A DNA stretch of 64,000 nucleotides from Thermovorax subterraneus (GTDB lineage: Bacteria; Bacillota; Thermosediminibacteria; Thermosediminibacterales; Thermosediminibacteraceae). How positions within the stretch are numbered: position 1 is the stretch's first letter; each line of letters starts with the position of its first letter. The notes below the pieces were generated by a model. The model saw only the letters and a program-made list of their open reading frames with translations, had not been told where the DNA came from and did not search any database. This document shows positions 2,600 through 47,197 of the stretch, piece by piece. The position numbers were made by a program, and so were the translations under genes. The stretch lies in the NCBI GenBank assembly GCA_021608145.1, contig JAKIHM010000010.1, positions 1 through 64,000 on the forward strand, given 5' to 3'.

Positions 2600-3596
2600 A
2601 AAAATAACTTTAGGTGAAAATTTGAGCCAAGAAGAGGCTGCGATGGCGATGGACGATATAATGGAAGGTCGTGCCACACCGTCGCAGATAGGGGGATTTT
2701 TGGTGGGCCTTCGCATCAAAGGTGAGACGATTGATGAAATAACGGGCTGTGCATTTACTATGAGAAATAAGGCCAAAAAAGTGATACTGGACGGATATGC
2801 AATAGATACATGTGGAACCGGAGGGGATGGCGGCAGGACGTTCAACGTATCGACAGCAGTTGCGATTGTAGCGGCATCTTGCGGTGTAAGGGTTGCAAAG
2901 CACGGCAACAGAGCAGTCTCCGGAAAAAGTGGGAGCGCGGATGTCCTAGAGGCTCTTGGGGTAAATATTGAGATGTCCCCCGAAGAGGTTGCCGAAACCA
3001 TCAGAAGGACGAATTTGGGCTTCATCTTTGCTCCACTTTATCATCTTTGCATGAAAAACGTTGCCGGGCCGCGAAGGGAATTGGGAATTAGGACAATCTT
3101 CAACATCCTTGGCCCGCTTACTAACCCGGCTGGAGTAAGAGGCCAGGTAATGGGAGTATACGACAGGGGCCTTGTGAAAAGCATGGCTCAGGTGCTCGAA
3201 AATCTTGGGGTTAAAAGGGCTATGGTAGTGCACGGCCTGGACGGCCTTGATGAGATTACCACTACTACGAAGACTCTTGTGAGCGAGGTCAGGGATGGGA
3301 GAATAGTCCATTATGAAATAGACCCTGCGGATTACGGAATCCCTTATGCAAGGCACCGTGACATCGCAGGCAATGATGCTTCTTACAACGCCCGACTTAT
3401 AGTGAAGATATTTAAAGGAGAAAAAGGCCCGGCGCGGGATATCGTCCTCTTAAATACAGCTGCTGCCTTATATATTGGAAATGAGGCAGAAAATATCAAA
3501 GAAGGGCTAGAAAAAGCTGCCTACGCCATTGACTCGGGAGCGGCTTATGAAAAACTGAGAGAATTCATAGAGGTAAGTAAGGGGGTTGCTCGATGA
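2580..3596 (+). CDS. trpD: Anthranilate phosphoribosyltransferase (TrpD)
   Basis: Joins anthranilate to PRPP to give N-phosphoribosyl-anthranilate. The 338-residue protein has the usual N-terminal helical part and the phosphate-binding [16 protein letters not shown] loop, followed by [21 protein letters not shown], which binds anthranilate and PRPP. It overlaps trpG by 20 bases and trpC by four (ATGA), fitting a coupled operon. Nothing is missing compared with the family. Confidence 0.97.
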
Positions 3597-13810: not shown

Positions 13811-14052
13811 AACGATAAAGGTGATGAGGGAAAGAGTAGCCATGGATGGGCTTAGAGAGAGCCGGTGGAGGGTGCGAACCGGTAAGCTCGCTATGGCGAA
13901 GTACATTCCCAAACCGCAGGCTGAATTAAGTAGGCCGGGCCGCATCGGTGCGTTATGCTGCGGAGGGGATTTGCATGGAAGATTTCTTCCGGCAAATCAA
14001 TTAGGGTGGTACCGCGAGAAAAGCTCGTCCCTGCGGGGACGGGCTTTTATTT
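13811..14052 (+). promoter_or_regulatory. T-box leader of paaK copy 1 (specifier read as UAC, Tyr)
   Basis: Visible elements are AGAGAGAGCC at the start of stem I, GAAG-UAC-A in the specifier loop (UAC at 13902-13904), the T-box motif GGGTGGTACCGCG at 14004-14016, and a terminator (AGCTCGTCCC paired with GGGGACGGGCT, then T-rich). The UAC reading depends on taking GAAG as the loop 5' side, as in the second leader of this pair. A one- or two-base shift would read other codons. It should raise expression when tRNA-Tyr is uncharged. Confidence 0.8.
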
Positions 14053-15403: not shown

Positions 15404-15429
15404 TCCTAAAAATAAAAATACAAAGAGAA

Positions 15430-15699
15430 AAAAGCGATGACGGAAGAGAGTAGGCTACGGCTGCACCTTACAGGGAGGAAGCGCCAGGGACTGAGAGCGT
15501 TTCCAGGTGCGAGTAGTTGAAGTTCGCTTCCTAGCTTTCGGGCTGAAGCTGAATGAAAGTAGGTCCGAACGGATTTGACCGTTAAAGCAATAGGGCATCG
15601 ACTGAAATGTCCGTGCCCGAAAAAGAGTGGGCTTTATGCCAATTTGGGTGGTACCGCGGAAATCAGCCTTTCGTCCCATTGCGGATGAAAGGCTTTTTT
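15430..15699 (+). promoter_or_regulatory. T-box leader of paaK copy 2 (specifier read as UUC, Phe)
   Basis: GGAAGC pairs with GCTTCC to form stem I, leaving GAAG-UUC-G in the specifier loop (UUC at 15523-15525), the same context as GAAG-UAC-A in the first leader. The T-box motif GGGTGGTACCGCG is at 15646-15658. The terminator pairs AGCCTTTCGTCC with GGATGAAAGGCT, then T residues to 15699. It should respond to uncharged tRNA-Phe. Confidence 0.85.
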
Positions 15700-28755: not shown

Positions 28756-28790
28756 TCCAGTTTTGTGGGCTTTAAGCGGATTTTCCTGGT

Positions 28791-28834
28791 TGTCTAAACT
28801 GTACAAAACTATACAAAATCATACAGTTTAGACA
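28791..28834. repeat. 13-bp perfect inverted repeat beside the decayed IS607 element
   Basis: TGTCTAAACTGTA (28791-28803) is repeated inverted at 28822-28834 with an 18-base loop that itself holds CAAAACTATACAAAATCATAC, a short direct repeat of TACAAAA-type units. It lies immediately past the predicted 3' end of the omega-RNA candidate, where a guide would be read. It could be an operator, a terminator-like hairpin, or the old target site. No T run follows. Confidence 0.6.
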
Positions 28835-28837
28835 GCT

Positions 28838-28945
28838 GGGCTATTTATACTCCGCCCTTTCAGAGAGTGCTCATTCCCAGCAGGCGGTATTTAAGCACTC
28901 CCATAGCCCCTGCCCCAAGAAGCAGGAACTCACGCACTTATCCGG
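28838..28945 (-). ncRNA. candidate TnpB omega-RNA scaffold with pseudoknot
   Basis: Read on the minus strand, GAGTGCT (28894-28900) pairs with AGCACTC (28865-28871). CCGCC in its loop (28883-28887) pairs with GGCGG outside it (28852-28856), an H-type pseudoknot. A CCTGC/GCAGG hairpin lies just 5' of this (about 28909-28925). The block follows and overlaps the 3' end of the tnpB remnant, where omega-RNAs of TnpB elements lie. The pairing is seen directly; calling it an omega-RNA is inference. Confidence 0.5.
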
Positions 28946-29830
28946 GTCTCCCCACTTGCCCTGAATGTAATACTCCCTTCAGGACAGAGACGTCCCTTAA
29001 AACTTTCCCAGGGGAGAGTGGCGTCACCACCGCTACCTTGAGAACTCGCCAGAGTTTATAGCCTTCGCTACAGGCACTAATACTTGTTCCATCCAGAGGT
29101 ATTAGTGCCTTCTCTAGCTCACTCCCAAGGCTTTGTAATAGTCTTATCGCCCTTTCTATCTCCTTTAGTTGTCTTTTCTTTAGTTGTTTGTTTCTAACCG
29201 TCCTCTTTACGTGCTCTTTTAATTCCCCCAATTCGTAAGCATCTAAATCTTTTAGAATTGCCATATATCCTTCGGGAATTTGCTCTTTTAACCCAAGTCC
29301 TCTTCTTGCTATGACATACGCTGCTGCAACGTCCTTGCTTATCATATACTGCGGTGCATATTTCAGCATCCCTATCAGTGATGTGTAGGCAGGATTGACC
29401 TCTATGATTTGTATGCCCTTTCTCTTTGCTAAAACCTTGATTTTTTCTATGAGCGACCTGTAGCTAAAGCTGTGCCTTATCCTCCTCGATTTCCTCCCTG
29501 AAAAATCTCCTTTTTTCCCTTTGTCTCTTATGTCCAATCTTTCGATTGCTATCGCCTTTTTCTTTTCTTCTGCTAGCCTTATTACTTCGTGGGCATACTG
29601 TCATCTGTAATATTCCCTCTTATCCGTATTGCCGCTTATAAGTTCGGGCATCGGAATTTTGCCGTGTCCTGCTAATTGCCCGTTCTCATCTGTTTCCGCC
29701 CATGCTATATGGTCCCTAAAAGCCTGTTATATGCAAATCTCATGCAGGATGACCATCTTCTCATTAAATCCGCTACTGTTTGCTTATCTTCCTTGCTTTT
29801 GAAAATGAGTTTAGTCTGTATTGTTATCAT
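28938..29830 (-). pseudogene. tnpB: decayed TnpB RNA-guided nuclease gene (IS607 type)
   Basis: The start reads MITIQTKLIFKSKEDKQ and RWSSCMRFAYNRLL, a TnpB N-terminus. A frameshift and a large deletion then join it to DHIAWAETDENGQLAGHG, an in-frame TGA (29601-29603) follows KREYYR, and the frame resumes QYAHEVIRLAEEKK, IAIERLDIRDKG (RuvC-II Glu), VEVNPAYTS-like IIEVNPAYTSLIG and SKDVAAAYVIARRGLG (RuvC-III Asp). About 200 C-terminal residues remain open. With at least three lesions and a short length (intact proteins are about 400-500 residues), it cannot make an active nuclease. Confidence 0.85.
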
Positions 29831-30063
29831 GTCTTTTGCCACCTCTTTGTCCTAAATCCTGGCTGCAAATGATGTGACTATTGCTATTAAATCCTCTGCT
29901 AACTCTTTGTTTATATCTTGTTCTCCATAACTTCATAATGCCATCCTTGGGAATTGGCGTATTCTTCAAGCCTTCTAATTTGATTCTTGAGATATTCTTC
30001 TTGTTTTTTTGTGGACACTCTTGCATACAAAACTACTTTAGGTCTTGGTTTTTCTTCCTGCAT
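29811..30063 (-). pseudogene. tnpA: decayed IS607 serine recombinase TnpA
   Basis: From an ATG at 30063 the frame reads MQEEKPRPKVVLYARVST, then KKQEEYLKNQIRRLEEYANS and QGWHYEVMENKI followed by TAA; YARVSTKKQ is the serine-recombinase active-site start. Downstream, NKELAEDLIAIVTSFAARI is the expected C-terminal part, again broken by a stop and a frameshift, with much of the centre deleted. The N-terminal MerR-like helix-turn-helix of IS607 TnpA is missing. It lies directly before tnpB in the same direction, the usual IS607 order. Confidence 0.8.
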
Positions 30064-31792: not shown

Positions 31793-32371
31793 TTAGAGAA
31801 TTAGGCGGAGCTTTGGTTGAATTTTTTTAGAGGGTTTTAAAGCTTTCTTTTCCTTAGATTTGTTGGTTACACAAATTTTACCGCTGACGGCTTCAACTTC
31901 CCTTACAACCATGGTGGCTTCCTCATAACCATATCTTTTCAGAAGTTCTTTTAATAGAGGTAGCTCTTTTCTTATAATTGTAATATTTATTGAAAATCGT
32001 TCGGCTCCGCCATAGCCATAACCTTTATGGGTTGTTACCGAATATCCCATATCTCTTAAAGAATCTGCGATTTTTTTGGCTTTTTCTTTTTTAGCAAAAA
32101 CAGAGACTTCTACTACACCTATTCCCATGATGTCTTCAATAAAGTGGCCAAGCCATACGCCAGCCACCCTTCCAAAAGAAAAGGCAAGTAGTAGAAGAAT
32201 TTGTCTGTTTTGTGAAATTAGTTGGAAGCCTAAAGCGGTTATTATAGCTTCAAGAAATACTATTAGATAAGCGGGTTTTAGTATCTTTCGGCTTATCATT
32301 ATGGTTTTTAAAGTATGAAGGGAAGTGTACATTGCATTTAACAAAAAAGCCAGAAAGCAATCCCTAATCAT
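31793..32371 (-). CDS. UPF0316 / DUF5698-DUF2179 membrane protein
   Basis: A 192-residue protein with three N-terminal membrane helices (residues about 5-85, with NAMYTSLHTLKTIMISRK and FGRVAGVWLGHFIED) and a soluble C-terminal DUF2179 domain (EVSVFAKKEKAKKIADSLRDMGYSVTTHKG), matching the UPF0316 (YebE) family. The function is unknown; the DUF2179 part resembles small ligand-binding ferredoxin-like domains. It ends in a basic tail. GGAGGGGG precedes the ATG. Confidence 0.85.
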   Translation of the reverse strand: MIRDCFLAFLLNAMYTSLHTLKTIMISRKILKPAYLIVFLEAIITALGFQLISQNRQILLLLAFSFGRVAGVWLGHFIEDIMGIGVVEVSVFAKKEKAKKIADSLRDMGYSVTTHKGYGYGGAERFSINITIIRKELPLLKELLKRYGYEEATMVVREVEAVSGKICVTNKSKEKKALKPSKKIQPKLRLIL

Positions 32372-32432
32372 CGTTCATCCCCCTCCCCATACTGGAACTT
32401 GCGAGCGGCAATTTATTCATGAGGAATTTTGG

Positions 32433-32690
32433 TTGTCAACGCTTTGGGGCAAAAGCTATATCTTGTAGCGATGGCGGTGGTGCTAACGCCGCTCTCCCCC
32501 GAGAGGGTATTATTTATAGGGACATAAGGGGAGCCCCGGTTAAAGGCGCGAGTTCCTTAGTGTTGGGGTAGGGACTACGGAAGTGATGAAACATCGCCTC
32601 GGGAAATGAGTACTCGCTCGGAGGGCAGAATGCGAATAATTCTCGATGTCTGATGACAGGTTGACGGCACATTATTTTATTCAAAATTCA
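32433..32690 (+). ncRNA. candidate structured RNA of unknown class
   Basis: This gene-free stretch is clearly GC-richer than its AT-rich flanks. A possible promoter (TTGTCA 32433-32438, 18 bases, TATATC 32457-32462) precedes several pairings: GCGATG (32468) with CATCGC (32592), GCGGT with ACGCCGC, CTCCCC with GGGGAG (about 32493-32533), GTTCC with GGGAC, GATG-AAA-CATC, and GCCTC with GAGGGC. No motif of a T-box, SAM, TPP, lysine, cobalamin, ydaO, tmRNA, RNase P or SRP RNA was found. It lies upstream of deoC but ends over 100 bases before it. The strand is uncertain. Confidence 0.45.
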
Positions 32691-32806
32691 TGATAAGTTC
32701 AATGTTTGATAAAATAAAATATGGAAACTTATTAAAAAGTATTGCCGAATATTTAAAACTAACTCTGGATTCCTTTGGGAAATTATCTTTTAAAGGGGGT
32801 TTTTTA

Positions 32807-33478
32807 ATGATAACGAAAGAACAACTGGCAAAGTTAATAGACCACACTCTGCTAAAACCCACAGCTACATTTGATGATATAGACAAGCTCTGCGAAGAGG
32901 CAAAAAAATACGGATTTTATTTAGTGTGCGTAAGCCCATGTTATGTGAGCTATGCCGTCCAAAAACTTTCGGGGAGCGATGTGAAAGTTGGAACAACAGT
33001 AGGATTTCCCCTCGGGGCAAGTTCCCCCGAAGTTAAGGTTTTTGAGACCAGAAAAGCTGTAGAGGCAGGAGCTTTTGAAGTGGACATGGTTATAAATCTT
33101 GGATATCTGAAAAGCGGCGATTATTATGCTGTAAAAGAGGACATAGAAGGAGTTGTGCGTGCGGCAAAGGAGGCAAACCCTGGAACTATAGTTAAAGTTA
33201 TCATCGAAACGTGTTATCTTACGGAAAATGAAAAGGTTACTGCTGTAAAACTTTGCATGGATGCAAAAGCGGATTTTGTGAAGACCTCTACTGGTTTTGG
33301 CCCTGGGGGGGCTACTGTAGAGGACGTGCGGCTGATATCCAAGTTAGTTGAGGGCAAAATGGGGATAAAGGCTTCCGGCGGAATAAGGGACCTAAGAACC
33401 GCATTGCAGATGCTCGATGCAGGAGCGACCAGAATAGGTACGAGCTCGGGAGTTGCGATAATGGAAGAATTTAAATAA
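32807..33478 (+). CDS. deoC: Deoxyribose-phosphate aldolase (DeoC)
   Basis: Cleaves 2-deoxyribose-5-phosphate to acetaldehyde and glyceraldehyde-3-phosphate in nucleoside salvage. The ATG at 32807, ten bases after AAAGGGGG, gives 223 residues, the normal length; upstream in-frame ATGs are rejected for lack of a site. IDHTLLKPTAT, EVDMVINLGYLKSGD, the Schiff-base Lys159 in FVKTSTGFG, and KASGGIRD are all present. It stands alone, with no deoA or pupG neighbours, and is convergent with the next gene. Confidence 0.96.
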   Translation: MITKEQLAKLIDHTLLKPTATFDDIDKLCEEAKKYGFYLVCVSPCYVSYAVQKLSGSDVKVGTTVGFPLGASSPEVKVFETRKAVEAGAFEVDMVINLGYLKSGDYYAVKEDIEGVVRAAKEANPGTIVKVIIETCYLTENEKVTAVKLCMDAKADFVKTSTGFGPGGATVEDVRLISKLVEGKMGIKASGGIRDLRTALQMLDAGATRIGTSSGVAIMEEFK

Positions 33479-36206: not shown

Positions 36207-36247
36207 ATATTATGCTAGAACCTTTTTGTTAATTTTTTTAAAATACG

Positions 36248-36283
36248 CGGGACGTAAAATGTAACATAGGGACAAAAAATATC
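36248..36283 (+). promoter_or_regulatory. CggR operator
   Basis: CGGGAC-N6-TGTA-N4-AGGGAC-N6-TATC matches the Bacillus CggR operator (two direct repeats of CGGGAC-N6-TGTC, four bases apart) with three changes. It lies between the promoter and gapA, so bound CggR would block transcription as a roadblock. Fructose-1,6-bisphosphate releases CggR in Bacillus. Confidence 0.8.
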
Positions 36284-36322
36284 CCGGGAGGTGATAGTTG
36301 GAAATAAATTAAATTAAATTAA

Positions 36323-37383
<1,061 letters not shown>

Positions 37384-47105: not shown

Positions 47106-47118
47106 ATAATAGCAAGTT

Positions 47119-47197
47119 AATAGGTGATGGAGCTCACCATAACTGCCTTCTGGCTAATAGCTCCTACAATATCATGAGATATTGTAGGAGCTTTTTA
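47119..47197 (+). promoter_or_regulatory. Fluoride (crcB-motif) riboswitch with overlapping terminator
   Basis: The aptamer reads GGTGATGGAGCTCACC, ATAACTGCC, TTCT, GGCTAATAGCTCCTAC, matching the crcB-motif: GGTGA/TCACC stem, TGCC/GGC(T) stem, and a pseudoknot in which GGAGC of the first loop pairs with GCTCC near the 3' end. CTCCTACAATATC (47161-47173) alternatively forms a perfect 13-bp terminator stem with GATATTGTAGGAG (47178-47190), followed by five T. The two states exclude each other, so fluoride should switch the downstream genes on. Confidence 0.93.

Follow-up and report, generated by a model that had tools for sequence, protein, structure and literature searches.

A GC-rich intergenic block of Thermovorax subterraneus is very probably a decayed relict of the right end of a TnpB transposon whose scaffold RNA recurs before start codons

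The GC-rich block between the divergent DUF5698-like and deoC genes of the window, the 64,000-nucleotide stretch of Thermovorax subterraneus DNA analysed here, is very probably what decay has left of the right end of an IS607-type TnpB transposon, located at about 32395-32660 (Table 1), and the relict itself is an ordinary remnant. The GC block is genuine, yet there is no folded RNA gene at this locus. One candidate RNA gene is removed, and a GC island can be the corpse of a transposon. The family of the relict joins a scaffold RNA unrecognised by Rfam with elements landing in Shine-Dalgarno sites, and within it a selfish guide-RNA scaffold apparently became a conserved 5'-UTR structure without the protein; if true, the RNA half of a TnpB system would have been domesticated.

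The GC-rich block in the window

The ORF calls of the window confirm a gap of 435 bases between divergent ORFs, and the GC content is 0.50-0.54 over about 32400-32650 against 0.27-0.39 in the adjoining sequence (100-base bins), both in agreement with the original prediction of a structured RNA of unknown class with several long pairings and a possible promoter. Pairings and promoter do not rise above chance, as folding is at chance level on the plus strand (z -0.45, 61 of 200 shuffles fold as well or better) and on the minus strand (z -0.93, 37 of 200 shuffles), and two promoter-like sites, against a shuffle mean of 1.0, are the chance level. The gap has no Rfam match at the gathering threshold and up to E 10 only one to a snoRNA model, at E 10.

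The block matches decayed TnpB transposon DNA, that is, the kind of decayed mobile sequence which the prediction itself had named as speaking against an RNA, and the proposed limits of 32433-32690 are replaced by those of the element remnant. As regards origin the prediction holds, the block being derived from a strongly structured RNA, the omegaRNA scaffold of a TnpB element. A live structured RNA at the locus is unsupported, with folding at chance, pairs broken or deleted and no match to the core model R2. A novel riboswitch or independent RNA gene without any link to transposons would equally present itself as a GC island between divergent genes, but is exceedingly improbable as the block aligns with tnpB and the element right end, folds at chance level and is unmatched by Rfam.

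Table 1. Features of the window referred to in the text (positions in the window)
Feature	Position	Strand	Basis or remark
T-box leader	13815-14035	+	Rfam
T-box leader	15428-15681	+	Rfam
Sibling omegaRNA scaffold and right end, well preserved	28785-29129	-	R1 165 bits, R2 80.4 bits
Sibling tnpB, degenerate (deletion, one in-frame TGA)	28941-29821	-	matches 28941-29726 and 29714-29821; TIGR01766
Sibling fragment of IS607 serine transposase TnpA	29914-30063	-	NF033518, E 4.7e-13, 49 bits
DUF5698-like ORF	start 32371	-	left border of the 435-base gap
Internal tnpB scrap left by large deletion	32395-32426	+	32 nt, 81% to intact tnpB L037
Decayed tnpB 3' end including stop TAA	32449-32543	+	pairwise alignment with intact L035, L057, L058
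Decayed omegaRNA (reRNA) 3' scaffold and element right end	32542-32660	+	model R1, 48.0 bits, E 3.3e-11
Terminus GATGACAGG, compare family terminus GATGACCAGG	32652-32660	+	comparison with 26 copies; element ends here
deoC	start 32807	+	right border of the 435-base gap
Fluoride riboswitch	47114-47173	+	Rfam

Composition and distribution of the relict

The longest match of the relict to intact copies (~73-77%) extends over the tnpB 3' end, the stop codon and the RNA downstream, whereby the relict tnpB 3' end carries deletions of 10 and 30 nt in the alignment with intact copies. A search of eight copies recovered the internal tnpB scrap at E 0.003, a match that is weak on its own. Homology to the tnpB 3' end and an element terminus place the block among the remnants of TnpB elements; without an intact tnpB ORF and with the left end deleted it is a remnant and no element.

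In a DNA search, matches to the relict were found in 6 of 61 genomes, with ten matches in the window's own genome (G000). While G004 carries the block at the same locus (99%), many matches of 72-78% in G000, G001, G003 and the distant G056 are often located at contig ends, as is typical of repeats. In 26 genomes of the class searched for a closer relative of the relict, the best long matches besides the G004 orthologue were 73-78% over 90-130 nt, and a plasmid search gave no match. The block is missing at the orthologous place in G001 and G003, which at this site read AGGAGG followed by ATCTGATGATGGG; this may be the scar of a deletion that spared part of the right end, or a chance resemblance. 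A mini-element without autonomy that a sibling's transposase still mobilises in trans would be expected to retain a family-like terminus, as the relict does; the probability of this alternative is minute, as the left end is absent, the terminal hairpin is gone and only one other genome has a copy, at the same locus.

The TnpB element family and its scaffold RNA

Full copies possess a long ORF directly upstream of a relict-like right end. The encoded TnpB-like protein of about 480 aa matches the NCBIfam models TIGR01765 (E 2.8e-24) and TIGR01766 (E 5.3e-18), both above cut-off, and reaches 64 bits with the general model NF040570 (cut-off 100). The IS607 serine transposase is absent from most copies of the family; in the G056 copy it is located upstream of tnpB (NF033518, 225.8 bits, E 2.9e-67) and contains Resolvase and MerR domains. 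The sibling TnpA in the window is a fragment of 50 aa and for this reason remains below the NF033518 cut-off (110). The sibling element as a whole (28785-30063, minus strand) is degenerate with the omegaRNA core intact, and is missing from G004 at the corresponding place.

Sixteen full 3' ends, that of the sibling among them, yielded a 348-column alignment and a fold with 101 pairs, 16 of which have both-sided changes, and in these copies the scaffold overlaps the tnpB 3' coding end. Single intact RNAs fold strongly (z -6.43 and -5.59). Model R1 was built from 23 intact copies, while model R2 represents the conserved RNA core. Rfam returned only a T-box for seven loci with intact copies and only unrelated weak matches for 15 loci, 14 of them with solos, i.e. 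RNA cores without tnpB, and in both cases no RAGATH-18 up to E 1; the scaffold family is unrecognised by Rfam 15 at the thresholds tried. The last 300-odd bases of an intact element encode the TnpB C-terminus and also form, as RNA, the omegaRNA/reRNA scaffold which, by analogy with studied elements, would supply TnpB with a guide derived from the flanking sequence.

IS607 TnpB elements with a RAGATH-18-derived reRNA and an experimental TAM of AGGAG or GAGGG have been described (PMC11061315). According to the accessible part of that report, they share with the present family the IS607-type transposase combined with TnpB and a 3'-end scaffold RNA with pseudoknots, and differ in that here RAGATH-18 is unmatched, TnpB has about 480 aa and falls below the general cut-off, and the scaffold overlaps the coding end. 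The terms 'start codon' and 'ribosome' are absent from the report (PMC11061315). For the TnpB/Fanzor reRNA of the IS607 element ISXfa1, a crossover at a GG dinucleotide, a conserved pseudoknot and a G-rich TAM (GGG) have been reported (PMC10711439), features with which the GG crossover, pseudoknotted reRNA and G-rich TAM of the present family agree; unlike here, solo scaffolds in 5' UTRs are not mentioned in the accessible part of the work on ISXfa1 (PMC10711439).

Decay or constraint at the relict

In comparison with the fold of the 16-copy alignment, the relict has nothing but gaps in five non-core helices and in the terminal hairpin. Of its 40 core pairs, 25 are unchanged, 9 are broken and 2 gapped, while 4 carry a change on one side and none on both sides. 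Random placement of the 62 substitutions breaks a mean of 11.7 pairs against the 9 of 38 scorable core pairs observed (P 0.18), and pair preservation is not significantly better than expected from such placement. With model R1 the relict scores 48 bits against 165 bits for the sibling, and core model R2 finds no match at E up to 10, with which a relaxed motif search agrees.

Over the block, G000 and G004 show 262 matches, 3 mismatches and 1 gap (98.9% identity). Other intergenic DNA of the window averages 92%, significantly below the block (p 1.5e-5), and third codon positions average 86%; the difference to the nearby third positions of the DUF5698-like ORF (148/157) is modest (p 0.02). Relict substitutions are also rarer in paired columns (14/78) than in unpaired columns (48/133). 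High identity and spared paired columns could reflect constraint, or else a recombination tract combined with descent from a diverged, once-functional copy. The low-divergence tract, at about 31962-32824, also covers part of the DUF5698-like gene and the deoC leader; because it extends beyond the block and stops abruptly at 32825, inside deoC, a recombination tract is an adequate cause of the identity between G000 and G004. Sharp shifts of this identity at 32825 and at other bins of the window suggest recombination breakpoints.

Identity above that of other intergenic DNA and weakly above third positions, together with the presence of true solos in the same genome, would also suit a domesticated solo scaffold that serves deoC or the DUF5698-like gene as a regulatory RNA or a 5' element. 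This is nevertheless quite unlikely, as the conserved core recognised by R2 is absent, the best P1 helix has only 5 bp with a score of 11, below the swapped-arm mean of 11.8, and the relict is not at a start codon, with deoC beginning 146 nt further on; moreover the block is missing in G001 and G003, and the low-divergence tract with its abrupt end spans parts of genes as well. As an ordinary remnant, the relict descends from a copy that was presumably active; tnpB is almost wholly deleted and the scaffold is deprived of helices, terminal hairpin and conserved core. What is left is GC-rich because its ancestor was, and is most likely functionless now.

Adjacent to the relict, an ORF that shares the deoC frame begins with an ATG at 32690; this stretch (32690-32806, plus strand) is identical in G004 over 117 bases, with only about 68% in G001 and G003, and may be a deoC leader or an N-terminal extension.

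Insertion at Shine-Dalgarno sites

An ORF of at least 60 codons begins 3-15 nt past the right end in 20 of 26 copies, a set in which two copies precede the same gene in two genomes, while the background rate of such ORF starts in the window is 1253/7574 after GG, 24/119 after CCAGG and 38/162 after GGAGG. On the left side, GGAGG was seen by eye in 7 of 9 legible flanks among the 11 full copies printed. Empty sites read AAGGAGGGAATTCAATG in G003, and similarly in G000, ahead of a gene that we take from its protein start to be metG, and AAAGGAGGTGAGAGATTG in G003, and similarly in G001, ahead of what is presumably rho, named likewise. Since copies end before start codons, left flanks carry GGAGG and empty sites are found, the family, as judged from sequence, inserts into Shine-Dalgarno sites. 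The TAM of AGGAG or GAGGG published for IS607 TnpB elements agrees with these left flanks and with Shine-Dalgarno insertion (PMC11061315). Elements are located at Shine-Dalgarno sites of core genes in G000-G008 and relatives, e.g. at L035, L036, L041, L044 and L058.

Solo scaffolds before start codons

Among 398 genomes of the phylum searched with model R1, 21 gave matches, and the matches listed from an exact-pattern scan of GTDB contigs derive from thermophiles of several phyla; among these listed matches, the RNA core without tnpB precedes the start codons of genes unrelated to one another, in Firmicutes, Aquificota and other thermophiles. Among 62 classified matches, 25 have tnpB homology within 2.2 kb upstream, all ending in ACCAGG, and 37, one of which is cut by a contig edge, have none. 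In 37 of 38 solos, a set that leaves out duplicates, the contig-edge case and L109, a start codon follows within 15 nt of the RNA end. The right end is often remodelled to a better Shine-Dalgarno sequence such as AAGGAGG, and a left end is found in one solo (L097), with two more fuzzy matches near the random rate (13 of 532 stretches). With model R2, 19 matches were found in G000 and 93 across nine genomes; of 20 examined outside known element copies (10 in G000, 7 in G003, 3 in G004), none has a family tnpB upstream, and in 18 the distance to a start codon is at most 15 nt.

The P1 stem around the core has a mean of 9.2 bp against 5.3 bp when arms are swapped between solos, and at least 6 bp in 37 of 38 solos; neither the observed P1 score nor the concerted variation of P3 was reached in any of 10000 permutations, whereby the permutation and shuffle tests on solos are affected by sequence kinship. 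P2 is almost invariant, with little covariation support. As P1, P2 and P3 cross one another, the modelled solo fold would be a pseudoknot. CCGCC, GGCGG and AAATA owe part of their conservation to ascertainment, because 14 of the 38 solos stem from the matches listed by the exact-pattern scan, which fixed core letters; P1 and P4 are outside the pattern.

Ten sets of solos that precede the same gene in two or more genomes provide 637 pair cells, of which 483 are unchanged, 43 changed on one side, 25 changed on both sides, 68 broken and 18 gapped, with 32 of the 68 broken cells in P4 of the AMMECR1/LigB set, where the alignment shifts. In the set before what we assume to be an amidase gene (three species of one genus; this and other gene names of the ten sets follow from protein starts), P4 has 4 both-sided and 0 broken cells. 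Solos can be lost, as some yjbQ orthologues, those of G003, G005 and G006, are without the RNA.

The host genes encode, for example, RNA polymerase alpha, arginine-tRNA ligase, lumazine synthase, alpha-ribazole phosphatase, YjbQ and an HflK-like protein. A riboswitch class of one pathway is rejected for the solos, as these genes are unrelated. Individual solo RNAs before start codons are L218-L224, L229, L250-L269 and L089-L106. In G004, an extra 2.3 kb at about 52.4 kb of the window ends in a solo scaffold (G004:C3:114316-114457; L031 10317-10458, minus strand).

The solo upstream of the AMMECR1/LigB gene

Directly before the start of the LigB + AMMECR1 gene, the solo RNA is present in all eight readable genomes of the family (G000, G001, G003-G008; the contig of G002 is too short), and it is missing in seven genomes outside the family (G009-G013, G015, G022). 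Between genomes the core shows 65-100% identity, or 80-100% if G005 is set aside, while the upstream flank is 46-71% identical. A TGGTATAAT box is located 43-104 nt upstream of the core in 6 of 8 loci; therefore the solo should belong to the 5' UTR. In this set 98.5% of 132 scorable cells are paired, and both-sided changes occur in six pairs, a result reached in 0 of 500 shuffles. All of these changes stem from G005, a single lineage in which an independent insertion could have occurred.

The general TnpB model has no match in G006 and G008, the same search matching in 8 of 14 named control genomes, and a single match with four stops in G005; the family's own TnpB as query has no match in G005, G006 and G008. 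A guide role in trans cannot explain the solos of G006 and G008, genomes without a TnpB match.

A proposed path from insertion to 5'-UTR element

The origin of solos can be pictured as a sequence of events, of which Shine-Dalgarno insertion, absence of tnpB and persistence of the core are observed. An element would have inserted at a Shine-Dalgarno sequence, the host gene then being translated from behind the right end; deletions would have removed tnpB and the left end, and the Shine-Dalgarno sequence would have been repaired. The scaffold core would stay because of a role acquired in shaping the 5' UTR, with a probable effect on translation or on mRNA decay. The reading that we favour, with somewhat more than even confidence, is that the solos represent a new 5'-UTR RNA class, in which the pseudoknotted scaffold core is kept by selection as a putative cis element of the host gene; this reading includes that selection acts across genera, genomes without TnpB among them, and that the effect is probably on translation or mRNA stability. 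The window relict would represent a failed case, serving no start codon, with its RNA rotted.

Stand-alone IscB omegaRNA loci and TldR guide RNAs are other cases in which a scaffold RNA has become separate from an active nuclease gene of its own, and act with a protein supplied in trans. The present solos share this separation; unlike those RNAs, they persist in two genomes without a TnpB match and directly before start codons. A search of an open-access library retrieved no TnpB scaffold retained alone at Shine-Dalgarno sites.

Two further matches were noted. In the window, R2 has a weak match at 36228-36309 (plus strand, 14.6 bits, E 0.05) upstream of the ORF starting at 36371, probably by chance, and on L095 a NiCo riboswitch match at 2774-2841 (minus strand) is just below the gathering score (36.1 versus 37 bits).
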